From positions 62,001-126,000 of the forward strand of contig JAJFVF010000010.1 in NCBI GenBank assembly GCA_021371935.1: a stretch of 64,000 bases of DNA, given 5' to 3'. Below the pieces are notes generated by a model. That model ran no database searches, was not told the DNA's origin, and saw only the letters and a program-made list of their open reading frames with translations. A program made the position numbers and the translations under genes. Below, one piece after another: positions 35,979 to 51,578 of the stretch. Numbering within the stretch: position 1 is the first letter of the stretch; every line of letters starts with the position of its first letter. This DNA comes from a bacterium. GTDB taxonomy: Bacteria; Armatimonadota; UBA5829.

Positions 35979-38093
35979 ATGAGTAACCTAAATGGAAGCG
36001 AGCCGGTCAGCAGTTTGTACGGCTCCAATGTATTCAGCGAAGCGGTTATGCGTGAACGCTTGCCCAAGGATGTATACAAGTCCATCAAGCGCACAATTGA
36101 TGGCGGCGCCCCGCTGGATCCGAGCATAGCCGCTACTGTGGCAAGTGCAATGAAAGACTGGGCCATCGAAAAAGGCGCAACACATTTCTGCCACTGGTTC
36201 CAGCCGATGACCGGTGTGACCGCTGAAAAGCATGATGCATTCATATCCCCGACAGGTGACGGCCGCACTATTATGGAGTTCAGCGGCAAGGAACTTATTC
36301 AGGGTGAACCCGATGCTTCATCGTTTCCATCCGGTGGGCTGCGTGCAACATTCGAGGCTCGCGGCTATACGGCATGGGACTGCACTTCCCCGGTTTTCGT
36401 CAAGGAAAGCGGCGACAGCATCTCTCTGTATATTCCGAGCGCGTTCTGCTCATATACCAGCGAGGCGCTCGACAAGAAAACTCCTCTGCTTCGCTCTATG
36501 GATATCCTGAGCAAACAGGCTGTCCGCGTGCTGCGTGCCCTCGGCAACACATCATCCAATCATGTGACCGCCACACTCGGCCCTGAGCAGGAATATTTCC
36601 TGGTCGATGCCGATTTTGTTAAAGAGAGAATGGATCTTATCCTGTGCGGACGCACTCTCTTCGGCGCGCCGCCGCCCAAAGGTCAGGAGATGGAAGACCA
36701 CTACTTCGGCACAATCCACGAGCGAGTGGCGTCATTCATGACCGAAGTCAACGAAGAACTCTGGAAACTGGGCGTATCGGCCAAAACACAGCACAATGAA
36801 GTATCGCCTGCTCAGTATGAGCTGGCTCCCATATTCGCGACTGTCAACGTCGCCACAGACCACAACCAGCTCACCATGGAGACCATGCAGAAAGTGGCCA
36901 TCCGCCATGGTTTCGTCTGCCTGCTGCATGAAAAGCCCTTCGCCGGAGTGAACGGTTCGGGCAAGCACAACAACTGGTCTATCGTGACCGATGACGGCAT
37001 CAATCTGCTCGATCCGGGCAAGACCCCGCATGAGAACGAGCAGTTCCTTATCTTCCTGTGCTCCATAATCAGAGCGGTCGACAAGTATGCCAAGATACTG
37101 CGCGCAAGTGTGGCGACCTCCGGCAACGACCATCGTCTGGGAGCCAACGAAGCACCGCCTGCGATCGTCTCGATCTTCCTCGGCGATCAGCTCACCGATA
37201 TATTCAAGCAGCTCGGAAACGGCGGCGCGAAGAGCAGCAAGTCCGGCGGAGAACTCAAGCTGGGTGTCAGCACACTGCCCAAGCTGCCGATGGACTGCAC
37301 CGACCGCAACAGGACATCGCCGTTTGCATTCACAGGCAACAAGTTCGAGTTCAGAATGGTCGGCTCGACACAGTCTACTGCCGGTCCGAACTTTGTACTA
37401 AACAGCATCGTGGCCGATGTGCTCTCGGAAGTCGCTGATGCATTGGAGAAAGCTCCGGACGTGAGCGCCAAGGCTCAGGAAATCCTGGCCAAGATCGCAA
37501 CCGAACATAAGAAGATTATCTTCAATGGTGACAACTACACAGAAGAATGGACCGTTGAAGCGGAGAAGCGTGGTCTCCCGAACATTTGCAACTCGGTGGA
37601 TTCGCTCGATGCTATGCTGGAGCCGGATGTTGTCAAGCTCTTCTCCAAGCATGGGGTCCTTTCCGAGCATGAGTGGCATGCGCGCTACGAAATCCTGCTC
37701 GAAAGATACTGCAAAGAGATCAATATTGAGGGTCTGACCACGATAAATATCGCAAAGCGCCAGATTCTGCCGGTCGCGATCGAATATTCGAGCATGGTCG
37801 CAAACACCATCAACTCGGTGAAGGCTGCAGGCGCAACCTCAAAGGCTCAGAGCAAGATACTGACCGATGTCTGCTCACTGATCGACGACCTGCAGGTAGG
37901 CATCGTCAAGCTCGAAGAGGCTGTCGAAAAGTCCGCATCTGTCGAGGATGTGCCGAAGCAGGCTCGCGCTTATCGTGACAGCGTAATTCCGGCAATGGCC
38001 GAGGTCCGCAAGGCTGTCGATGCACTTGAGATGATAGTGGATGCAGATATGTGGCCGCTGCCGACATATGCGCAGATGCTGTTTGTCAGGTGA
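35979..38093 (+). CDS. glnN: Glutamine synthetase type III (GlnN)
   Basis: 704 residues, the length of GSIII, well above types I and II. Family motifs: [10 protein letters not shown] (ATP/glutamate loop), [20 protein letters not shown] and [16 protein letters not shown] near the N-terminus. It makes glutamine from glutamate, ammonia and ATP as a homo-dodecamer. GAGAGGA precedes the ATG. Upstream (35728..35978) a TATAAT at 35905..35910 is the only promoter hint, with no clear -35. A strong terminator follows. GSIII is common in Bacteroidetes, cyanobacteria, Armatimonadota and relatives. Confidence 0.95.
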
Positions 38094-38146: not shown

Positions 38147-40783
38147 TTACGTGTATGGAATGAAACCATAGATGCCGGTACTGATCGGCTCCGTGGGCTG
38201 CTGATCCTTTGGAGCGCGTTCCCAATGCACTTTGATCGAATCCAGTATACGGCCGGGATGCATGGCTTCATATATACTCCAGATGTAATCCTTTGCAGTC
38301 TCAATGTTCGGTGCGCAGACCAGCAGCGACATTCTCTTCATCTTCAGCGGTGAGCCGTCAAGGTCAATGGTCGATACCCACGCCGTGCATTCAGATGTTG
38401 ACTCTTCACACGAAGTCAGCCCCTTGAATATGCCGGGAAGCAATTCCTCAACGGGTGTTGCGTCAGGGAGAGTCTCCTTGCATACGTTTAATGCTTCAAG
38501 AAGCAGGCTGTGCGCACGTTCTTTATTTTCATTTTGATATTCTATGTTCGCAAGACAGAGTAATGACGATGGACTGAATCCAAGCTCAACCACTGCTTCC
38601 AGGTAGTGTTTCGCCTTTTCCATCTCCCCTGCATCAAAACAAATTCTGCCCACTGTCCCAAGGGTTTTTGGTCCCGGCTCTTTTTCAAGAAGTGTATTTA
38701 TCATATTATCGGCATCATCTGCATGTCCAAGAAATGTTTCTGCAACGAGTGCGCATAGCATAACCTCATAATCATCGGGTTGTTCCTTTTGAATGATCGC
38801 GATCTGCTCATTTGCCGCTTTTGCTCGCCGCAAGTCAAGCAGCACCTTGGTCAAAAGCAATCGCAGCGAATGATCGTTCGGCGCCAGGCTCACTGCACGT
38901 CGTATGTTGAACAGGGCTTCATTTAGTTTTTCGCGCTCCCACTGACATCTCGCAAGCAGCGCAAGCACGGTCGGCTCATTAGGGTATCGCGCTGCAGCGT
39001 CAATCAGATAAACTTCAGCAGCGTTCCAGCTTCTCTGCAGCGCAAATGCCCATCCAAATCCCCATGTCAACGTGCCGACGAGGTTGCAGCGGCTGTATAT
39101 AGTGTTGATTGACCGATTCGAGGCGTCCGCGTTGCCGAAATAGGCCTCAGATACGCCGTTAGCCAAAAGAGCCTCGTCACATTTGGAGCTGGCCATGATA
39201 GCCAGTCTTGAAGCGGCGAGTGCTGTCTTGTAGTCGCATTCCTTGAGAGCGGCATAGGCACGGTCTGCCCAATATCTCGCTAAGTTTGCTCTGCCCATCC
39301 TGAGCGGCTTGGCTTGATTCGAAAGCATGGCCTCAAACTCTTTGTCGTTCGCGTCATCAGGATCAGGATTGCACCTCAGCTTCTCATCTACCAGTCTGTA
39401 ACTTGGGAATGGAAGCCCAACGCGCTCACTGTAACCCATAATTCGGAACAGAGCAACACAGATCACAAGGATGGCTGCCATTATCAAAACAGCCAGAATA
39501 GATGCGCTACTGAGCAAGCCTACTATGAAAAACATCAGCGTGAACACACCGATAATAATGAAGAGCGCCTGCCATCCAGTAAACTTCATTTGGCCGATCG
39601 ATTTTTTGCGAATCCAGCGCGCCAGTCTATTCGTATCATCCTGCTCAGCCAAGCTGATGACTCGCTCGATCTCGTCGGCAATTTTCCTGGCCACAAAATC
39701 CGGGTCTCTGATTAGACTGATTGCGGGTTCGCCTGCCTCTGAAATTTCACCCTCACCCCACATCGCCAACCTGTCGGCTGTGGTCGGGTGGGTGTTGAAA
39801 TCACCTGGTTTGCTGTTCGCAAGTGTCTTATTCACCAGTTCAGTTCGCTCTTCACCATCTGCCGGGGAGAGTCTGGCGTGAAGCCAGTCCGTGAAACTCT
39901 CATCGCGTTCAAGATGCATCAGACGCTCTTTGAACGTCAGGTCCCGGCCTTTTATTGAAGCGATATCTGTTGCCAGCAGTGCACTCTTGCACGCGCCTGC
40001 TCCGCATATCCGGGCAGCCAAACGGTCTGCCGCGAACTCATCTTGCCTCATATATGCCGATACAAGTTTGAGAGCGAGTTTTGCAAATTGTCCTGCGATG
40101 CCCGAGAGAATCTCAGCGAGATAAAACCGCTGCTTTGCTTCATGGACAGAAGAGCACAATGATGAAAGCTCCTGCGACATCTGGATACAGCGATATGTGC
40201 CGTTTATGACGACATTGCGATACCCGCGATTGATCAGTTTTGCATGAGAGAGTTCATGCGCCATTATCGCAGCCAGTTCTTGCTCAGAGAGGATCGCCAG
40301 CATATCGAAACCGATCATAAGTCGAGTGCTTCCCTTGCCGGTTCGATAGCCGGATAGATGAACCGAGGCATTGTTTTCCATTTCAAGGACTATCCCATCA
40401 GGCGGCACAACACCAATTTTGCTGGCCAACTCTGTTGAAAGCTCATATAGCCTCGGCGCAACTGATTTTGGGAGTTTGATATGGCAGTCTCGGCTCTCCT
40501 CGAACTTGAAACTGCGAATGATTGTGATCAGCAGCGAGTATACTGCCTGTGTGGGGGCTATAATCTTTCCAGCCAACCCGATCCTCGCAGCCGGTATTAT
40601 TAAAGCAATATCCATAGCAAGAACGACCAAGGTAATTGCAATAGCGCCAGCGCCAAATACATAGCTCAGCAAAGAAATCAGAGCACACCAGACAAGCAGA
40701 GCCGTGTGAGCGCTTCCAGACAGTGGCTTTTCAGGCTTGAGACTTTGCGTGGTTTTGCTCTGCTTTGCAGAATCAATCGTCAT
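38147..40783 (-). CDS. M48-family metalloprotease with TPR domain
   Basis: 878 residues. Two N-terminal membrane helices (about 30-75), an M48 peptidase domain with HELSH in IMAHELSHAKLINRG (about residue 180) and the third zinc ligand in QDEFAADRLAARI, two further helices (about 400-445), then a long TPR region (about 510-800). The last 70 residues are separate. It is an inner-membrane zinc protease like HtpX/Ste24, with TPRs probably for substrate or partner binding. Length is about twice that of plain M48 members. It converges with glnN. Confidence 0.88.
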   Translation of the reverse strand: MTIDSAKQSKTTQSLKPEKPLSGSAHTALLVWCALISLLSYVFGAGAIAITLVVLAMDIALIIPAARIGLAGKIIAPTQAVYSLLITIIRSFKFEESRDCHIKLPKSVAPRLYELSTELASKIGVVPPDGIVLEMENNASVHLSGYRTGKGSTRLMIGFDMLAILSEQELAAIMAHELSHAKLINRGYRNVVINGTYRCIQMSQELSSLCSSVHEAKQRFYLAEILSGIAGQFAKLALKLVSAYMRQDEFAADRLAARICGAGACKSALLATDIASIKGRDLTFKERLMHLERDESFTDWLHARLSPADGEERTELVNKTLANSKPGDFNTHPTTADRLAMWGEGEISEAGEPAISLIRDPDFVARKIADEIERVISLAEQDDTNRLARWIRKKSIGQMKFTGWQALFIIIGVFTLMFFIVGLLSSASILAVLIMAAILVICVALFRIMGYSERVGLPFPSYRLVDEKLRCNPDPDDANDKEFEAMLSNQAKPLRMGRANLARYWADRAYAALKECDYKTALAASRLAIMASSKCDEALLANGVSEAYFGNADASNRSINTIYSRCNLVGTLTWGFGWAFALQRSWNAAEVYLIDAAARYPNEPTVLALLARCQWEREKLNEALFNIRRAVSLAPNDHSLRLLLTKVLLDLRRAKAANEQIAIIQKEQPDDYEVMLCALVAETFLGHADDADNMINTLLEKEPGPKTLGTVGRICFDAGEMEKAKHYLEAVVELGFSPSSLLCLANIEYQNENKERAHSLLLEALNVCKETLPDATPVEELLPGIFKGLTSCEESTSECTAWVSTIDLDGSPLKMKRMSLLVCAPNIETAKDYIWSIYEAMHPGRILDSIKVHWERAPKDQQPTEPISTGIYGFIPYT

Positions 40784-40925
40784 ATTCGATCTCCCCGCCG
40801 ATGAAAATCGGTTACATATACCAATAATGTTCGACCAAAGTTACATTTCGACCTTCAGTTGCTTGTTACCGGAGTCAGTATGGGAATAAATCAACCGAAT
40901 TACCAACAAAAGGAGGCATATTACG

Positions 40926-41192
40926 ATGCGGCTAAACATATTGGCCTTTGGTCTGACCTGCGGAATAATGTGGGGTTTCGGAGTTTTCTTTCTCACATGG
41001 TGGATAATGGCATTCATGGGTGTGACGAATGACCCTATCGTGCTTGGTTATATGTACAGAGGCTATAACATCAGCCCAATTGGAAGCGTTATTGGATTGG
41101 CGTGGGCTTTAGCCGATGGGTTTGTAGGCGGCGTGATATTCGCCTGGTTATACAATCTGATAACAAGCAAGATGCATCCATCCAACGAGTGA
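40926..41192 (+). CDS. Small two-helix membrane protein (holin-named family)
   Basis: 88 residues. Helix one LAFGLTCGIMWGFGVFFLTW, a loop with GYMYRGYNISPIGS, and helix two (SVIGLAWALADGFVGGVIFAWLYN). I recall many small proteins of this pattern in environmental genomes named bacteriophage holin, but no phage genes are near and the role is not established. AAAGGAGG precedes the ATG. Confidence 0.75.
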   Translation: MRLNILAFGLTCGIMWGFGVFFLTWWIMAFMGVTNDPIVLGYMYRGYNISPIGSVIGLAWALADGFVGGVIFAWLYNLITSKMHPSNE

Positions 41193-41339
41193 ACTCTATC
41201 TTGAATCAGCCAAGATAATTTTGTGTCGGTTACAAACGTTGAGTGGGAGGGCGGACACGGTCATCTGTTTCCAGGACAAAAAAACAGTGCTATGGGACGT
41301 CTATAACAGTGACAGACAAAAAATATGGAGGAGAAAGCT

Positions 41340-41879
41340 ATGAAGTATTGGATTGCAATTTTTGTTCTGGCACTGGCATTGGCAGGTTGCGGCAGGCAAA
41401 ACGTCAATCTTCCAGGTTGGGCGCCCAAAAACCCTTCTTCTGGGTTCGTCAGAGCTGCAAATGCGCTGAAATCGTTCCCGGACGGATCCGACAAGGCGCA
41501 AGATGCCCGTCTTCATCAAATCTTGGTGCCTGCATGGGAGTTTTTAGGCACACTTGGCGATGATCAGATCAGCAGTCTGACCAATAACAAGCAACTCCGT
41601 CTGCCCTACGGTTCATTAACGAAAGCTCAGCAGAGCCTGATCTCCAGCTTTTTTGAGACCTATCGACAAACAATGAAAAATGTGCCTCCCAGTGACGACT
41701 GGCCAAGTGATGAATTGGCAGAGATCGTTAAACTCGGCGCAAAACAAGACTTGTCGAATGTGGATATACAACTGGATATCAGAGCAAACAATCTGGTGCG
41801 ATTTGCCTGTGTTATCCAATATCCGAATGGAAGCGAGAGTAAGCCACTGCCTCTTATTGGTTTGGGATATATGCGCTGA
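41340..41879 (+). CDS. Lipoprotein, unknown
   Basis: 179 residues from ATG 41340 (GGAGGAGAAAG upstream). The signal peptide KYWIAIFVLALALAGCG has a lipobox LAGC, so Cys17 should be lipidated. The mature part is helical and polar with no family I recognise (FVRAANALKSFPDGSD, LTKAQQSLISSFFETYRQTM). It sits between a small membrane protein and an acetyltransferase, all on the plus strand. Confidence 0.78.
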   Translation: MKYWIAIFVLALALAGCGRQNVNLPGWAPKNPSSGFVRAANALKSFPDGSDKAQDARLHQILVPAWEFLGTLGDDQISSLTNNKQLRLPYGSLTKAQQSLISSFFETYRQTMKNVPPSDDWPSDELAEIVKLGAKQDLSNVDIQLDIRANNLVRFACVIQYPNGSESKPLPLIGLGYMR

Positions 41880-41933
41880 AAACCGTCAGACCAATTGGAG
41901 GTGTTATTGGACTTTGGTCGACGGGTTCGTGGA

Positions 41934-41963
41934 TTGGCCTGGCAGTTGTCTTGCTGTTATACT
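41934..41963 (+). promoter_or_regulatory. Promoter ending at the start codon (possible leaderless mRNA)
   Basis: TTGGCC (41934..41939), 18-nt spacer, TATACT (41958..41963). ATG 41964 and ATG 41970 follow at once, so transcription would begin about at the second ATG. Confidence 0.45.
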
Positions 41964-42437
41964 ATGGATATGAAAGACATTGCCCAAGAGTTTCAGTTCA
42001 TGGACCCGGGACATCTTGTCGACGAAGAACTTGAACTCATACTTGTTGAGAGGCTGCCTGGCGATCCTGCGCGCGCCTTTGTTCCTGCCTATGTGTTCGA
42101 TATGCGTGTTGACGGCCAGAAGGTCGGTGGTATCAACCTGCGAATCGGCAATACTGATGGTATTGTCACTTACGGTGGACATATCGGGTATGTCGTTGAG
42201 CCTGAGTCACGCGGGCATCATTATGCTGAGCGGGCCTGTCGACTGGTTTTTCCATTGGCTAAAAATCATGGTCTCACAATCCTCTGGATAACTTGTAATC
42301 CAGATAACATACCTTCTCGTAGGACATGCGAGCGGTTGGGGGCGACTTTGGTCGAGATCGTCGATCTTCCCGAAGATAACAATATGTATCAGCGGGGGGA
42401 ACGTGAAAAGTGCCGATTTAGGATTGATTTAGATTAA
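41964..42437 (+). CDS. GNAT acetyltransferase
   Basis: 157 residues from ATG 41964; ATG 41970 is the alternative. The C-terminal GNAT core shows GGHIGYVVEPESRGHHYAER (acetyl-CoA loop with R-G-H), then ACRLVFPLAKNHGL and CNPDNIPSRRTCERLGATLV. This pattern is typical of RimJ-like small-molecule or tagged-peptide acetyltransferases. No ribosome-binding site is visible, and a -10 box abuts the ATG, so translation may be leaderless. A longer open frame upstream lacks start signals. Confidence 0.82.
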   Translation: MDMKDIAQEFQFMDPGHLVDEELELILVERLPGDPARAFVPAYVFDMRVDGQKVGGINLRIGNTDGIVTYGGHIGYVVEPESRGHHYAERACRLVFPLAKNHGLTILWITCNPDNIPSRRTCERLGATLVEIVDLPEDNNMYQRGEREKCRFRIDLD

Positions 42438-42508
42438 GCAATTCACACTAAGTAAATTGCATCTCCCATATTACGAACACATGTCTTTGATATAATCAAG
42501 ACCGTATA

Positions 42509-43783
42509 TTACTTAATTTCCCCTGGGTTTGCATACTGCTTCATTACGTCAGAGTATGCACTTTGTATCTCTGCAATAGAGGGCTGCCTCAGGGCTGCTT
42601 GATGTGCATAAGACTCCGCCTCGGACTTCCTTCCCAACTTAATCAGCAGTGACAAGCAGTCTCTAAGTCCTTCAATATCTCTGGGGTTGAGCGCAAAAGC
42701 TTTTTTGTATTCGATTACTGCATCTTTCGGCCTGGAGCTTTCGAGGAACCTGGCATAGCTGAAATGAATGCCGGCTTCGCATGGACCGAGCGTCAATGCT
42801 TTTTTATAATGCTGCCAAGCTAAGTCCATCTGATCGTTATAGAATGCTGATTGTGCAAGAAGCATGTGTGCATACGCAGAGAAAGGGCGCAGCTTTACTA
42901 ATTCTTTGGCACAAGAAAGCTGATCATTGAGTGTGGAAACAGTGAAGTAGTGGATTATGTTTAAGAAAGCTTCTTTTGAATTCTCAGTCGATGATTGGAG
43001 AGGCCTATAATTCTTTGGCTCATTGATTTTGCGCGTGATTGCGGCCAATTGGTTTGCGGTGCATGTTCCGATTGCAGTAGTGTAGCCCAACTTTTGACTA
43101 TGTGCGCGTGTATGGAATATACCAACCATGTTGCCCGTGTTTGATGAGATGACCGGCGAACCGGGCCAGACAGACTCGACCTCCTGACTGGTATCACGCA
43201 TCCACAACATAAGCGGTTGGCCATGCTTAACACCCACGGCTGTCACAGTTAATTTGTCTGTACATAGATCAAGCTCACTTTCCATACGAACTTTTTTTGT
43301 ATTATAGAAGGATATTAAGACACGATCTGTGTCCAATATCTCTTGCTCTTTTGCAAGCGAGAAGGCGGGATGCTTGGTCCATGGCAATTTCAGAATGGCA
43401 ACGTCCAATTTAGGATAAATTGCTACAATTCTTGCCTCGCAAATGTCGCCTAAATAGGGGCTGATGACATAGGGATTACTTAACCCTGTAAAGTTGTTGT
43501 AGCGGTGTGACTGCACAATATACTCGCAACTTGCAACTAAATACCTGCCATCTCCAAACACAAATCCGGGACCTATTTTCCATGAATTGCCCCATGAATT
43601 AATAATTATCAGCAGTGCTTCAGGATCAAGCTGCTTCCCGTTTTCAAATGTGATGGCTTCCTGCTGTTTTACCTTAGGATTCTGTATTTGATCTGCATTA
43701 ATGCGTAGGCTGATGGTGCCAACGCTAACCAAAATAAATAGTATGCAAACTAATTTAGATATAACTCTGGGATGAGACTCCAT
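42509..43783 (-). CDS. Trypsin-like pseudoprotease with TPR domain
   Basis: 424 residues from ATG 43783 (GGAGGAACGA upstream). Signal peptide about 30 residues, a trypsin-fold domain (about 45-250) and C-terminal TPRs. It is a paralogue of the next gene, 21 nt apart. At the catalytic His position the sequence is VASCEYIV (His replaced by Glu in the alignment), and at the serine position VWPGSPVIS (Ser replaced by Pro); the Asp in KLDVAILKLPW remains. It should not cleave peptides. The TPR half is about 90% identical to the paralogue, the protease half much less. Confidence 0.82.
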   Translation of the reverse strand: MESHPRVISKLVCILFILVSVGTISLRINADQIQNPKVKQQEAITFENGKQLDPEALLIIINSWGNSWKIGPGFVFGDGRYLVASCEYIVQSHRYNNFTGLSNPYVISPYLGDICEARIVAIYPKLDVAILKLPWTKHPAFSLAKEQEILDTDRVLISFYNTKKVRMESELDLCTDKLTVTAVGVKHGQPLMLWMRDTSQEVESVWPGSPVISSNTGNMVGIFHTRAHSQKLGYTTAIGTCTANQLAAITRKINEPKNYRPLQSSTENSKEAFLNIIHYFTVSTLNDQLSCAKELVKLRPFSAYAHMLLAQSAFYNDQMDLAWQHYKKALTLGPCEAGIHFSYARFLESSRPKDAVIEYKKAFALNPRDIEGLRDCLSLLIKLGRKSEAESYAHQAALRQPSIAEIQSAYSDVMKQYANPGEIK

Positions 43784-43804
43784 TCGTTCCTCCAGCAGCA
43801 ACCA

Positions 43805-45361
43805 TCATTCACTGATCCGTTTTCGCAGCTTGTCTATCTTTTCGGCTGAAATAATACTCGACTTGTTGAGCGCGGACGCCTTGTCCAGCGCATCCAGCGC
43901 CAATTGGTAGTCTTGCTTCTTATAATTGCAGATGAACTCCGCATATGCATACCAAATCCTCGGATCATCTGGTGCCAGTTTCAGTAATGCCGCGTATTGT
44001 GTTTGTGCATCGTCCAATCGACCCAACTGCGCAAGCAAATCAGCCAGAGTCAACCTGTATGCCGGATTCATGGGAACAAGCTTAACTGCTTTCTCTGAGA
44101 GTGTGGCCGCTTCTTCGGGTTTTTTAAGCTGTTCCATTACATTAGAATAGACACTCCATATCTCAGCAATCGAGGGCTGTCTCTGGGCAGCTTGATGCGC
44201 AATAAACTCTGCTTCGGACTTCCTCCCCAACTTAATTAGCAGCGATAAGCAGTCTCTAAGTCCTTCTATATCTCTGGGGTCAAGTGCAAGAGCTTTTTTG
44301 TATTCGATTGCAGCATCTTTCGGCCTGGAGCTTTCGAGGAACCTGGCATAGCTGAAATGAATGCCGGCTTCGCAAGGACCGAGCGTCAGTGCTTTTTTGT
44401 AATGCTGCCAGGCCAGGTCTATCTGATCGTTATAGAATGCTGATTGTGCAAGAAGCATGTGCGCATACGCAGAGGAAGGGCGCAGTTTTATAAATTCTTT
44501 TGCATATTTAATTTGGTCATCGAGTGTAGATGCAGCAAAATAAAGAATTATGTTCGAGAAAGCCTCTTTTGAATTCTCTGTCGATGCTTGGAGGTGCTTA
44601 CCACTCTTTGGCTCATTGATTTTGCTTGCAATTTCAGCCAATTGATTTGCAGTACATCTTGCAGTTGCAGGTCTACCCATACCTATGTCATCGACTATTC
44701 CACTGAGCACACCAATCACATTGCCTGTCTTTGATGAGATAACCGGAGAACCACTCCAGCCCTGCTCAATTCGTTGGCTGTCATCTTCCATCAACAGCAT
44801 GCGAGGTTTATTGTGTTTTATGCCTGCGGCCGTTACAAGAAGCCAATCAGTACATAAATCAATTTTCCCCTCCGTAAAGACTCTTTTTATGTTATAGGAA
44901 GATATTGATACATTATCCGTGTTCAATACTTCCTGCTCATTTGCAAGCGTTAGAGCGGGATGCTTATTCCATGGTAATTCAAGAATAGCAACGTCCAACT
45001 CAGGATCTGCAGCAATAATCCTGGCCTTACTTATGTCTCCCCAATAGCGGCTGATAACGTAGGGGCTCTTTAATCCAATAAAGCTGCCGAACTCATTACA
45101 GCAATCGACATTGTGATAGTTGGTGGCTATATATCTTCCATCTCCAGATACAAATCCGCATCCCGCGTTTATTTCGTCTGCCCAGATATCAATTGTTACC
45201 ACCAGCGCTTTGGTGTCAACTATCTTTCCTTTATTACCTGACAGACCTATAGTGTCAGCAATTTTATGGCTTTCTGTTTGAATGGCAGTACACGGCAGAC
45301 AATTACTGAGTAAAACGACAAAAATGGGAATGCAATGGTATCTAATCACAGTTAACTCCAT
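43805..45361 (-). CDS. Trypsin-like serine protease with TPR domain
   Basis: 518 residues. Signal peptide about 25 residues, then an S1-type domain with the triad: His in YIATNYHNVD, Asp in ELDVAILELPW, and Ser in GWSGSPVISSKTGNVIG. From about residue 285 there are several TPR motifs (SAYAHMLLAQSAFYNDQIDL, AGIHFSYARFLESSRPKDAA). It is a periplasmic or surface protease related to DegP-like S1C but with no PDZ domain. The extra C-terminal 90 residues (TPR) are missing in the paralogue. A TTGACA/TAGAAT promoter lies upstream. Confidence 0.85.
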   Translation of the reverse strand: MELTVIRYHCIPIFVVLLSNCLPCTAIQTESHKIADTIGLSGNKGKIVDTKALVVTIDIWADEINAGCGFVSGDGRYIATNYHNVDCCNEFGSFIGLKSPYVISRYWGDISKARIIAADPELDVAILELPWNKHPALTLANEQEVLNTDNVSISSYNIKRVFTEGKIDLCTDWLLVTAAGIKHNKPRMLLMEDDSQRIEQGWSGSPVISSKTGNVIGVLSGIVDDIGMGRPATARCTANQLAEIASKINEPKSGKHLQASTENSKEAFSNIILYFAASTLDDQIKYAKEFIKLRPSSAYAHMLLAQSAFYNDQIDLAWQHYKKALTLGPCEAGIHFSYARFLESSRPKDAAIEYKKALALDPRDIEGLRDCLSLLIKLGRKSEAEFIAHQAAQRQPSIAEIWSVYSNVMEQLKKPEEAATLSEKAVKLVPMNPAYRLTLADLLAQLGRLDDAQTQYAALLKLAPDDPRIWYAYAEFICNYKKQDYQLALDALDKASALNKSSIISAEKIDKLRKRISE

Positions 45362-45398
45362 GATTTACTTGCTGATGTGATGCGGTAGACTCACACGC

Positions 45399-45427
45399 AT
45401 TCTATCTGCGATCGTTCAGACTGTCAA
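45399..45427 (-). promoter_or_regulatory. Sigma-70 promoter of protease pair
   Basis: On the minus strand TTGACA (45427..45422), 17-nt spacer, TAGAAT (45404..45399). Surrounding bases (TTGTTGACAG and TAGAATGC) match the promoters at 25576 and 48657. Confidence 0.7.
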
Positions 45428-45507
45428 CAATATCCTCTTCTACAATTGATTAGTTCCAACACCTTCGCCATTCAAGAAAATAATCGAACATATGTGCGCC
45501 AAAACGC

Positions 45508-45536
45508 TTGTATGGCAGCATCCGGCGTGATAGAAT
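45508..45536 (+). promoter_or_regulatory. uvrA: Sigma-70 promoter of uvrA
   Basis: TTGTAT (45508..45513), 17-nt spacer, TAGAAT (45531..45536), 34 nt before the start codon. No LexA-type palindrome is obvious. Confidence 0.6.
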
Positions 45537-45570
45537 AGGTTAACCAAAATTTGATGATATAGAGAGCAGC

Positions 45571-48396
45571 ATGGGTCAAGACAAGATAGTCATCAGAGGT
45601 GCAAGGCAAAATAACCTCAAAAATATAAGTGTCGAGATACCGCGGGACAAGATGGTGGTCATCACAGGTCTTTCAGGCTCGGGCAAATCGTCTCTGGCGT
45701 TTGACACCATATACGCAGAGGGTCAGAGGCGGTATGTGGAGTCGCTGTCGAGCTATGCACGCCAGTTCCTCGGTCAGATGGACAAACCCGATGTGGATGA
45801 TATACAAGGGCTTTCGCCAGCCGTCTCCATAGACCAGAAGTCCACAACCCGCAACCCTCGGTCGACTGTCGGCACCGTCACTGAGATATACGACTATTTG
45901 CGATTGCTCTTTGCCCGGATAGGACACCCGCATTGCCCTCAGTGCGGACGTGAGATAACCCAGCAGACAGTCGAGCAGATGGTCGACACGATCATGGCTC
46001 TGCCCGAAGGGACAAAGATTCAAGTCCTGGCGCCACTCGTTCGCGGCAAGAAAGGTCACTATAGGAAGCTAATCGAGGATGTGCGCAAGGAAGGGTTCGT
46101 GCGTGTGCGTGTAGATGGCGAAATGCACGAGGTTACTGATGACATAGAGATGGACCGCTACAAGCAGCACACCATCGAGATAGTAGTGGACCGGCTGGTC
46201 GTCAAGGACGGTATCCAGAAGCGCCTGAATGACTCTGTGGAAACTGCTCTCAAGAAGGGCAACGGTGTGCTGGGAGTGGATGTGGTCGGTGAGGAGGAGA
46301 TGATCTTCTCCGAAAACTTCGCATGCGCCGAGTGCGGGATCAGCATTGGCGAGGTAGAGCCGAGGAGCTTTTCGTTCAATACTCCTTATGGCGCATGCCC
46401 AGAGTGCAATGGCCTGGGCAGTCACAAACACCTGAACCCCAATCTTATCATACCGGATAAGAACAAATCTATCGACCAGGGAGCAATTGTCCCATTCGCG
46501 CGCGGCACGCATGAATGGATCAAGGCACTGCTCAAAGGTCTTGCCTCCGAACTTGGTTTCTCTCTCAAAACGCCGATAAAAGACTTGACGGATGTTCAAT
46601 ACGATACGCTGCTATATGGCACGAGCATGCCGATAACGGTCACATATGCCAGCCGGTTCCGTGGGTCGACCAGAACATATCGCACTCACTTCGAGGGGAT
46701 CATCAACCTGATGCAGCGGCGCTACTCCGAGACTGGCTCGGATATGATCAAGGAAGAGGTCGAGCACTACATGTCCGAAATTCCGTGCTCCACCTGCGGC
46801 GGCAAACGTCTGAGGCCGGAGAGCCTGGCAGTCACTATTGGGGGGCTGAATATCTCTGAGGTGGCTCATAAGTCTATCGGCGCAACATACGAATGGTTCA
46901 ACACACTCCGCCTCAGCCGCCGCGAGACGATCATCGGCGAGCAGATCATCAAAGAAATTTGCGCTCGACTCAAGTTTTTGCTGGATGTCGGGCTGGAGTA
47001 TCTGACTCTGGACCGGACCGCGGCCACTCTGGCCGGAGGCGAGGCTCAGAGGATCAGACTGGCGACCCAGATCGGCAGCGGACTGATGGGTGTCTTGTAT
47101 ATCCTCGACGAGCCGAGCATCGGCCTCCACCAGAGAGACAACAGGCGGCTGATCGATACACTGCTGCGTCTGCGCGACCTGGGCAACACGATAATCGTGG
47201 TCGAGCATGACGAGGAAACTATTGAGTCCGCGGACTGGATAATAGACATAGGCCCCGGTGCAGGCGAGCATGGCGGAGAAGTTATCGCAGAAGGCACTTT
47301 GGACAAAATCAAGGCGGCAAAGGACTCTTACACTGGTATGTATATGTCCGGCAAGCTCTCTATACCGGTGCCTGAGCAGCGCCGCAAGCCCAACGGCAAG
47401 TGGATCGAGATAAACGGCGCACGCGCTCATAATCTGAAAAGCATTGATGCCAGGTTCCCTATGGGGGTTTTCATATGCGTGACGGGTGTGTCCGGCTCCG
47501 GTAAGAGCACTCTCATACAAGAGACACTGTTTCCCAGGCTGATGTATGCCATTGAAGGGACACATCGCGTCTGGGGCGATCACGACAGTGTCGGAGGACT
47601 CGAAAATATTGACAAAGTGATCGATATCGACCAGTCACCTATTGGCCGCACGCCTCGGTCGAACCCGGCGACGTATACCGGCGTGTTCGACGTAATCCGC
47701 GAACTTTTCAGCAAGACGCCCGATGCCAAGGTGAGAGGTTACCAGCCGGGGCGGTTCAGCTTCAACGTGAAAGGTGGCAGATGCGAGGCGTGTAAAGGCG
47801 ATGGGATCATCAAGATTGAGATGCAGTTTCTGCCGGATGTCTACGTGCCGTGCGAGGTCTGCAAGGGCAAGCGATATAACCGCGAGACCCTCGAAATCAA
47901 GTATAAGGGCAAGAGCATTGCAGATGTTTTGGATATGACGGTCAGCCAGGCGACCGAGTTCTTCAAGCACGTTCCAAAGATCCACCGCCGCTTGGAGACT
48001 ATTCATGACGTTGGGCTGGACTACATACGCATGGGTCAGCCTGCGACCACTCTCTCGGGCGGCGAAGCTCAGCGTGTGAAGCTGGCAACTGAGCTTGCCA
48101 GGCGCGCCACGGGCAAGACCCTCTATATCCTGGACGAGCCGACAACCGGTCTGCACTTCCATGACATCAAGAAGCTCCTCGAAGTGCTGGGGCGTCTGGT
48201 CGATGCGGGGAACACTGTGCTTGTGATCGAGCACAATATGGATGTGATCAAGACAGCCGACTATATAATCGACCTGGGACCCGAAGGCGGGGACAAGGGC
48301 GGTACGATTGTCGCCACAGGCACACCCGAGCAAATCGCCGAGGTGCCGGAGAGCTATACCGGGCAGTTTTTGCAAAAGATGCTCGGCAAGAAGTAA
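45571..48396 (+). CDS. uvrA: UvrABC excinuclease subunit A
   Basis: 941 residues, normal length. Two ABC modules with Walker [13 protein letters not shown] and [12 protein letters not shown], signatures LAGGEAQR and [11 protein letters not shown], Walker [12 protein letters not shown] and [12 protein letters not shown]. Zinc motifs CPQCG, CAECG, CPECNG, CSTCGG and the C-terminal CEACKGDG...[10 protein letters not shown] are intact. It finds bulky DNA lesions with UvrB. It starts about 20 nt beyond ATTTGATG; ribosome site AGAGAG is weak. A terminator repeat follows. Confidence 0.97.
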
Positions 48397-49631: not shown

Positions 49632-51578
49632 CTACTTTGCTCTTTTCTTCCTATCCGGCACTTTGATCTTAACCCGGTGATATGTCGAATTCTCAGATGT
49701 TCTGGTTGTTCCTGAGAACTCGGGGACCAGCTGATTTATGGCCGGGTTATAGCCTTCATAGTGTACGGCCATAGTGTAGACAATATCGTTTTGTGCAATC
49801 ACATTCTGCGGGTCGGCTTTACTGCCGAGACGGTTTCGCGCTGCAAGCAGGGCCTCTTCAGGGGTAGTTGCAACAGTTAACTCAAAGACACGAGAGTCAA
49901 TATCATCCCCTGGTTTCAGATAGACGAAGCTTCCACTGCAGGTCATTTGAATCGTAACTGCCTGAGTGCCTAACGGACCACGGACAACTTGAGGCTCATT
50001 CATATTCAGACCATCATTGTTGTAGACGCCTACACGAGTAGGATTGGAAGAATAGAGAAGAGCCGCCAGCGCATTACGCTGTTCCATAGTTAATCCCATC
50101 GCCCCAACTCCACCAGAGAAAATTTCGCTTTTCTGCTTCGAGGTAAGCAGTCCGTAGAACCGCAACACAGCATTCTCACGACCACCTAGATCATCGACTT
50201 CGTTACACTCACCAAGTTTTAGATAATGGCAGTTTTCCGATATTGCCTGTCTCTGCTCGCCGCTCAGAAAAGCCGCCGCCTGTGCAAGTTCCTCAAGACC
50301 CCTGTAGCCCTGTTTCTTTACCACAGCCTGCCATGGTCTAAGAAATCGGTTAGGTATCTCTTTTGCATCGGCTGTTCGGACATCCTTTACACGTGTATAA
50401 AGGAGATTGCCGTCCCATCCACAGTTCGCAGCAAAACCGGGCAGTTTCTCCTCAATAAGCTGCTTTACACTAGTGTCCTGAACATCCGTGAATGCTACCC
50501 AACTGCTGTAGTAGTCCGAGAATATCTGCAATCCAAGCCTGTTGTGCAGTGCTGCGAGTAGATCCGTCCTGGTTGCAGAACAGGTGCCGTTTTTCTCCTC
50601 GGCTATAGCTCCTTCGTCTACAAGCTCCATAGAGCTTATGGAAACCTTCTTACTTAATAGTTTGTCTGCCGGTTTGCCAGGCAGTGTGTTCTGAAGTGTT
50701 TCTGAAGGACTGTCTATCTCCTGGTCGCACAGGTCAAGCCCGCCTTCTCTCGCGGAGGTCCCTGCTGATCTCGAAGACCCGCAGACAACACTGTAGATTC
50801 CCATTGATCCTGACCCCGAATTAGAATCCGGATGGGTGTAGCCGACAACGACTTTGCACCGTGCTACAATCAGATTCGCGTCAATAGCCGAGTACAGTTC
50901 GATCATGACATCACTGGGAGTTGTTGGGTCCGGGGTCCATGGTGACCAATCCTCGTTTCCTTTGTAAGTCGGTTTTTGCATTTGACTCTCAGCGTTGGAG
51001 AATTCATCCATTACCAACTGCGAAGGACGCCAGGCAGGGTTGGGAGTTGCCAGGCTGTAACAAATGCGCATACCGGACAGATATGCCTTGCGCAACTCTG
51101 GTGAAAGTGATCTGAATTGCTGAAGAGCAAGAGTCTTGTAGAAGCCGGCATTGTCTTCCGCATTGTATGACAGCGAGTCCAGCTTTGCACCAAGAGTTTG
51201 CCATGCATTATCAAGCGCCTCCTGTCGATCAGCTTCCCGCTGCTGCCTCAGCGGATCATAGATGATGTAAGTGTCAACACCATCGTCATCGGCTTTTACA
51301 GTCCAGCTCCAGCCAAAGAGTTTTGCCAGGTGATTCATTACATTTCTTAGCGGCATATTATCTACAAGAATGGTGACCTTCTGATCGGCCACATCTTTTG
51401 ACGGGCGGATATTGACCCCTGCCGCTTTGGATAGAACTTTTGCAACATCCGACAGCGCTTCGCCCTTCAAGTCCAGCGTGACAGTCTTTGAAAAAGCAAC
51501 ATCATTAGAAAACAGGTCGACAGCGGCTGCTGGCATGCAAATAGCTAGCAGGCTAATAATGATAAGTGCTAAACGCAT
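49632..51578 (-). CDS. Secreted protein with secretin-type STN domain
   Basis: 648 residues with a signal peptide (MRLALIIISLLAICMPAAA). Residues about 30-105 look like an STN domain: VTLDLKGEALSDVAKVLSKA, AGVNIRPSKD, VTILVDNMPLRNVMNHLAKL, WSWTVKADDDG. The remaining 540 residues have no family I recognise and no secretin channel, so this is a periplasmic or outer-membrane protein that borrows the STN fold. Many His-poor, Gly/Ser-rich loops; C-terminus basic (VPDRKKRAK). Single gene with its own short gaps. Confidence 0.75.
   Translation of the reverse strand: MRLALIIISLLAICMPAAAVDLFSNDVAFSKTVTLDLKGEALSDVAKVLSKAAGVNIRPSKDVADQKVTILVDNMPLRNVMNHLAKLFGWSWTVKADDDGVDTYIIYDPLRQQREADRQEALDNAWQTLGAKLDSLSYNAEDNAGFYKTLALQQFRSLSPELRKAYLSGMRICYSLATPNPAWRPSQLVMDEFSNAESQMQKPTYKGNEDWSPWTPDPTTPSDVMIELYSAIDANLIVARCKVVVGYTHPDSNSGSGSMGIYSVVCGSSRSAGTSAREGGLDLCDQEIDSPSETLQNTLPGKPADKLLSKKVSISSMELVDEGAIAEEKNGTCSATRTDLLAALHNRLGLQIFSDYYSSWVAFTDVQDTSVKQLIEEKLPGFAANCGWDGNLLYTRVKDVRTADAKEIPNRFLRPWQAVVKKQGYRGLEELAQAAAFLSGEQRQAISENCHYLKLGECNEVDDLGGRENAVLRFYGLLTSKQKSEIFSGGVGAMGLTMEQRNALAALLYSSNPTRVGVYNNDGLNMNEPQVVRGPLGTQAVTIQMTCSGSFVYLKPGDDIDSRVFELTVATTPEEALLAARNRLGSKADPQNVIAQNDIVYTMAVHYEGYNPAINQLVPEFSGTTRTSENSTYHRVKIKVPDRKKRAK

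Follow-up and report, generated by a model that had tools for sequence, protein, structure and literature searches.

A tandem protease and pseudoprotease pair with a gene-conversion-like tract inside its TPR region

Two adjacent genes of the 64,000-nucleotide stretch of DNA analysed here (the window) are tandem duplicates. The upstream copy (UP) encodes a predicted active protease with tetratricopeptide repeats (TPRs) and the downstream copy (DN) a predicted inactive paralogue, and gene conversion of an inner TPR segment between the two is well supported. The full account, in which an old tandem duplication gave a live UP and a dead DN that acts by binding, with the inner TPR segment later converted, is judged probable, if not strongly so. 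An earlier note on this DNA had placed the tandem at 42509-45361; this location is confirmed, with both ORFs on one strand:

43805..45361, minus strand: UP, ORF; Trypsin_2 (S1-like) protease with TPR repeats, 518 aa, hydrophobic N-terminus
43784..43804, minus strand: spacer from the UP stop to the DN ATG, 21 nt, holding GGAGGA, a ribosome-binding-like site
42509..43783, minus strand: DN, ORF; predicted pseudoprotease paralogue of UP, 424 aa from the ATG at 43783, with a shorter TPR part
45399..45427, minus strand: sigma-70-like promoter TTGACA-17-TAGAAT, a consensus match only, 37 nt before the UP ATG

The paralogy of UP and DN is beyond chance (E = 2e-160 within the window, 1e-158 in the genome). 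The mechanical ORF of DN begins at the TTG at 43801; the ATG at 43783, with GGAGGA directly 5′ of it, is the better start and is the one that DN would use. The promoter before UP matches 11 of 12 consensus positions, but because the region as a whole is not enriched in promoter-like sites over shuffles (seven found, 7.4 expected), it is counted as a consensus match and not as proof. UP and DN probably form one operon. Both N-termini are hydrophobic, and it is likely from their sequences that both proteins are exported. DN is shorter than UP, as the alignment stops at UP residue 418 of 518 and the last TPRs are absent. No remnant of these TPRs was found downstream of DN or elsewhere in the window, and the reading of DN as a recognisable pseudogene whose tail has been frameshifted is therefore rejected.

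The only Pfam families found in UP and DN are Trypsin_2 and TPR families. In UP, Trypsin_2 (PF13365) scores 55.7 bits (E 1.2e-14), above the curated cut-off of 27.6; in DN it scores 27.5 bits (6.1e-06), 0.1 below that cut-off, although the homology of DN to UP is beyond doubt. In the AlphaFold2 model of UP (mean pLDDT 77.5), strands span residues 54-236 and TPR helices residues 264-517, a helix count corresponding to about seven TPRs, of which DN keeps about 4.5. The model of DN (mean pLDDT 71.2) aligns with HtrA and Rv3671c protease folds at Z 16-17 and rmsd 2.5-4.8 among the top matches, and DN is thus predicted to keep the trypsin fold; its protease domain lies largely at pLDDT 45-80, at which fine detail of the model is unsafe. 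PADLOC models gave partial, weak matches to UP, none to DN and no full-length match, so known anti-phage defence proteins are ruled out as an identity for the pair.

The catalytic positions were located by alignment:

45113..45115, minus strand: UP catalytic His83, codon CAC
44993..44995, minus strand: UP catalytic Asp123, codon GAC
44753..44755, minus strand: UP catalytic Ser203, codon AGT, within GWSGSP
43523..43525, minus strand: DN Glu (GAG) at the His position
43403..43405, minus strand: DN Asp (GAC), kept
43163..43165, minus strand: DN Pro (CCC) at the Ser position

UP therefore keeps the S1 triad, and DN has Glu for His and Pro for Ser with only Asp left, just as the earlier note had read them. 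To that residue list can be added the oxyanion Gly201 of UP, two codons before the Ser position, which is Val in DN (GGC to GTC). Thus UP has His, Asp, Gly and Ser in register (H83, D123, G201 and S203), and DN, with E, D, V and P at those positions, lacks an active S1-type residue set. Identity between the copies is 0/16 residues near the His, 14/19 near the Asp and 12/18 near the Ser. Because of the residues at the triad and oxyanion positions, UP is probably an active protease and DN is probably inactive; the earlier proposal that DN is a pseudoenzyme is supported at the level of sequence.

The two halves of the pair have diverged unequally. The protease parts are identical at 105 of 201 residues (52%); in the TPR part amino-acid identity is 83% over residues 262-418 (130/157) and 87% over residues 298-418 (105/121); the TPR halves had been put at about 90% identical, which is right in direction and somewhat too high. 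Synonymous divergence (pS) is 0.66 [0.56-0.75] in the protease, 0.55 [0.33-0.83] over aa 251-292, 0.22 [0.10-0.35] over the roughly 79 codons of aa 293-371, and 0.60 [0.40-0.80] over aa 372-418. The low segment, in which amino-acid divergence is also very low (pN 0.03), has these positions in the two genes:

44249..44485, minus strand: conversion-like tract in UP, defined by pS; aa 293-371, TPR2 to the first helix of TPR4
42656..42892, minus strand: matching conversion-like tract in DN, sharing exact runs of 62 and 41 nt with UP

This tract was picked after viewing the data and therefore a scan of all windows along the pair, with degeneracy-matched permutations, was made. The strongest window, aa 293-357, has 7 changes among 60 same-amino-acid codons where 21.2 were expected; 2 of 5000 permutations were as extreme. 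Uniform synonymous divergence, the pattern that the earlier note had set against conversion, was tested and not found: with that note's own split, the protease has 48 changed codons among 100 that encode the same amino acid, and the TPR part has 32 among 127 (5 of 5000 permutations as extreme). An unstratified test for the tract gave 4/400. Comparison of the downstream tail with the tract gave 232 of 5000 permutations, and in the unstratified test adding a second breakpoint to the first brought no improvement beyond chance (251/400). The tract is thus well delimited upstream; its downstream edge, though likely, is weaker. The longest exact run shared by the copies is 62 nt, a length that none of 5000 codon shuffles reached, and the two longest runs (62 and 41 nt) both lie inside the tract; the longest outside is 21 nt. 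These run lengths suggest why only the tract would still recombine. Outside the tract the duplication is old.

Gene conversion had been proposed for the TPR part, and it is supported for the inner segment and not for the TPR half as a unit, which is ruled out by the pS of 0.60 at aa 372-418, close to that of the protease half. Strong selection on the TPR part was the other cause proposed in the earlier note. If purifying selection alone held this segment, at the protein level and possibly at the codon level, the pN of 0.03 would be accounted for; however, the dip extends to synonymous sites, and single-copy relatives do not show it in the homologous segment. In all 10 single-copy orthologue pairs of the sister gene (the third family member, described below), pS of the tract equivalent is 0.62-1.01, with no comparable dip relative to the pair's own protease half, and the same scan on five of the control pairs gave 31, 173, 47, 168 and 81 of 300, none of them significant. 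Because these orthologue pairs show no dip, slow synonymous change is not an intrinsic property of the TPR segment. Selection as the sole cause is thereby ruled out as an account of the TPR identity, and a pair without any conversion is considered very improbable.

The divergence of DN bears on whether it is maintained or decaying. Branch lengths in the protease tree are 0.53 for DN and 0.40 for UP. At sites where at least two of four active relatives agree, the consensus is kept solely by UP at 12 and solely by DN at 12; where three of the four agree, 10 sites are lost only in DN and six only in UP, with the DN-only losses taking in the H83, G201 and S203 positions. DN therefore evolves no faster than UP, and its losses fall at the active site. 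With 10, 20 or 30% of sites changed at random, the first 260 codons were still an open frame in 86, 9 and 0 runs, respectively, out of 2000. The open frame of DN reflects constraint since the duplication, not necessarily since the loss of catalysis. A decaying DN, which lost catalysis and its C-terminal TPRs recently and whose product has no role, would fit the shortened C-terminus, the 0/16 identity around the lost His and the lack of an orthologue to show retention. The 424-codon open frame speaks against decay, although it covers the whole time since duplication and is compatible with a recent loss; so do the ribosome-site-like sequence before the DN ATG and a departure from consensus no faster than that of UP. 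On this evidence decay is rated unlikely.

In the preferred account, an exported Trypsin_2-TPR protease would have been duplicated in tandem long ago, giving UP and DN. UP would remain a protease, cutting in the cell envelope and guided by its seven or so TPRs, and DN, with catalysis gone but the fold and about 4.5 TPRs kept, would most likely work by binding. Because the genes lie side by side, recombination between them could have copied an inner TPR segment of about 200-240 nt once divergence had set in elsewhere; by then the protease halves would be too different to recombine, with TPR2-TPR4 still similar. UP and DN would in consequence display one common TPR2-TPR4 surface. Two roles for DN can be envisaged: it may bind the partner or substrate of UP without cutting it, as a competitor or decoy, or it may join UP in a mixed complex that tunes UP, in the way that the non-catalytic MamO acts for MamE. 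That DN regulates or competes with UP, a kind of role that the earlier note had also suggested, is our best guess, by analogy.

MamE and MamO are the closest precedent for the pair. As far as described in the available part of PMC4794232, MamO activates MamE-dependent proteolysis without a triad of its own and binds metal, and protease duplications with triad loss arose several times. On the same source, an active trypsin-like protease with a degenerate paralogue is common to both cases, here in one genome region and at residue level, and the dead partner MamO, like DN, has a non-Gly residue at position 193. Unlike DN, in which only Trypsin_2 and TPR families were found, MamO carries a TauE-like domain and has a known metal-binding role, and the description there, in that part, does not include a conversion tract. 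A survey of prokaryotic serine proteases called 42 of 966 catalytically inactive; its main text contains neither 'TPR' nor 'tetratricopeptide' (PMC2605481).

Among solved structures, the best match of the UP protease is MarP/Rv3671c of Mycobacterium tuberculosis (E 3.8e-06), to which the DN model aligns at Z 16.3 (3k6y). However, the score with the NCBIfam MarP model is 30 bits, below its cut-off of 250, and TPRs are not named in the match results. HtrA, DegP and DegS share the fold, but carry PDZ where UP and DN carry TPRs, no PDZ match being found in the pair; the degP_htrA_DO model scores 20.4 bits against a cut-off of 416.2, below the level of HtrA (Deg) membership. Gene conversion between tandem paralogues is known, as are live and dead protease pairs. 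Literature searches on related pairs and on gene conversion in such pairs yielded nothing on this TPR-fused family, a weak negative, on which a TPR-fused family with two separate losses and a conversion confined to part of the binding domain are apparently new.

Orthologues of UP and DN were found neither in 61 relatives, 19 genomes of the order and viral contigs nor in a genome collection scanned by short patterns. The only match from that collection, obtained with an alignment of the two sequences, was to a Nitrospinaceae MAG and covered TPR residues 265-362 (28%). The lack of a second genome with the pair weighs against the preferred account. It is likely that the pair was gained in this lineage, possibly by transfer. 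It may have arrived horizontally, already duplicated and converted elsewhere, which is compatible with the preferred account and is a substantial possibility, short of an even one. GC over 40-46 kb of the window is 0.44-0.48, as opposed to 0.54-0.56 in most of uvrA (0.44 for the pair and 0.55 for uvrA), three genomes (G001, G002 and G006) lack, next to uvrA, the gene block that lies to its left in the window, and the tree places the pair with active members from other families of the phylum. However, the join of UP and DN with the G263 relative was flagged as a possible long-branch effect, and no donor was found in the viral contigs or the genome collection. In G004 the contig stops 313 bases before the uvrA start.

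Other genes lie around the pair. The low-GC stretch at 40000-46000 lies between what we take, by eye, to be a glutamine synthetase gene (35979-38093) and uvrA. An M48 peptidase with TPRs (878 aa) is encoded at 38147-40783 on the minus strand, and among seven close genomes it is present only in that of the window (E 1e-50). At 49632-51578, also on the minus strand, is a gene for a 648-aa protein with no Pfam match at E 0.001, to which the DNA upstream of the G002 uvrA holds a weak match.

A third family member is present in the same genome on another contig (G000:C6, L042 274-1857), with the architecture of UP and DN and about 520 aa. When 291 genomes of the phylum were searched with a profile, full-length protease-TPR relatives turned up in 17 of the order's 19 genomes and, outside the order, in G032, G059, G046 and G263; five candidates were scored per genome at E 1e-25, and counts outside the order are a lower bound. 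HtrA-like proteins with PGNSGGP or PGNSGAP (12 rows) had been removed from the family set before alignment, alignment A2 excludes L026 and L058, and the G003 gene, interrupted by a stretch of Ns within the contig, was read as separate halves and excluded from trees. All three triad residues are kept in the four relatives outside the order. None of the 17 order-wide members keeps either the His or the Asp: the His position holds Asp in 15, Thr in G009 and Ile in G008, and the Asp position Asn in 12. Only in G010 is there a Ser in the aligned Ser column, in a loop without the GxSGxP motif. In a tree of 22 rows, 16 order-wide rows fall on one side with support of 100/100, and UP and DN fall with the active ones. 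Differing from DN in both clade and replacements, the order-wide member would have died separately, catalysis being lost at least twice if the ancestor was active.

The near-fixed Asp and Asn replacements of this order-wide pseudoprotease resemble a conserved, replaced site. DN might by the same token have taken on a role that has nothing to do with UP, for example ligand binding in what was once its active-site cleft; the sister family, which died separately, looks as if it has a new site, and MamO offers a metal-binding example (PMC4794232). However, the Glu, Asp and Pro of DN are unlike the replacements in the sister family and the ligand role is putative, and such repurposing is also rated unlikely. 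A broader version of the preferred account is considered less likely than not: the TPR domain would be what the family members use in common, and the protease fold would have been turned repeatedly into a binding module, by one ancient loss in the order-wide pseudoprotease and a second, separate loss in DN, with conversion keeping UP and DN directed at one partner, DN serving as a competitor or allosteric subunit of UP, and the tract marking the binding surface. If the reading of the pair is right, UP and DN would offer a small-scale natural experiment on how a pseudoenzyme stays useful, in which the catalytic half is free to change and recombination keeps the binding half matched to the live enzyme, and the tract would indicate a surface worth mutating. 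The family would likewise give two separate losses of one triad, with different replacements, for comparison with MamE and MamO.

The neighbours of the order-wide pseudoprotease showed no conservation beyond close pairs of genomes. In one case it adjoins a type II/IV secretion ATPase with an N-terminal zf-HC2 zinc finger (L100 4327-5748), and a related ORF is also present in L101. Outside the order, in G032 (L109 1642-6828) and G046 (L111 621-7481), an active protease-TPR gene on the minus strand is followed by genes for a hydantoinase/oxoprolinase and a Rhomboid-TPR protein; order and strand of the three genes are identical in the two genomes, and they are possibly a set of TPR-bearing proteases.
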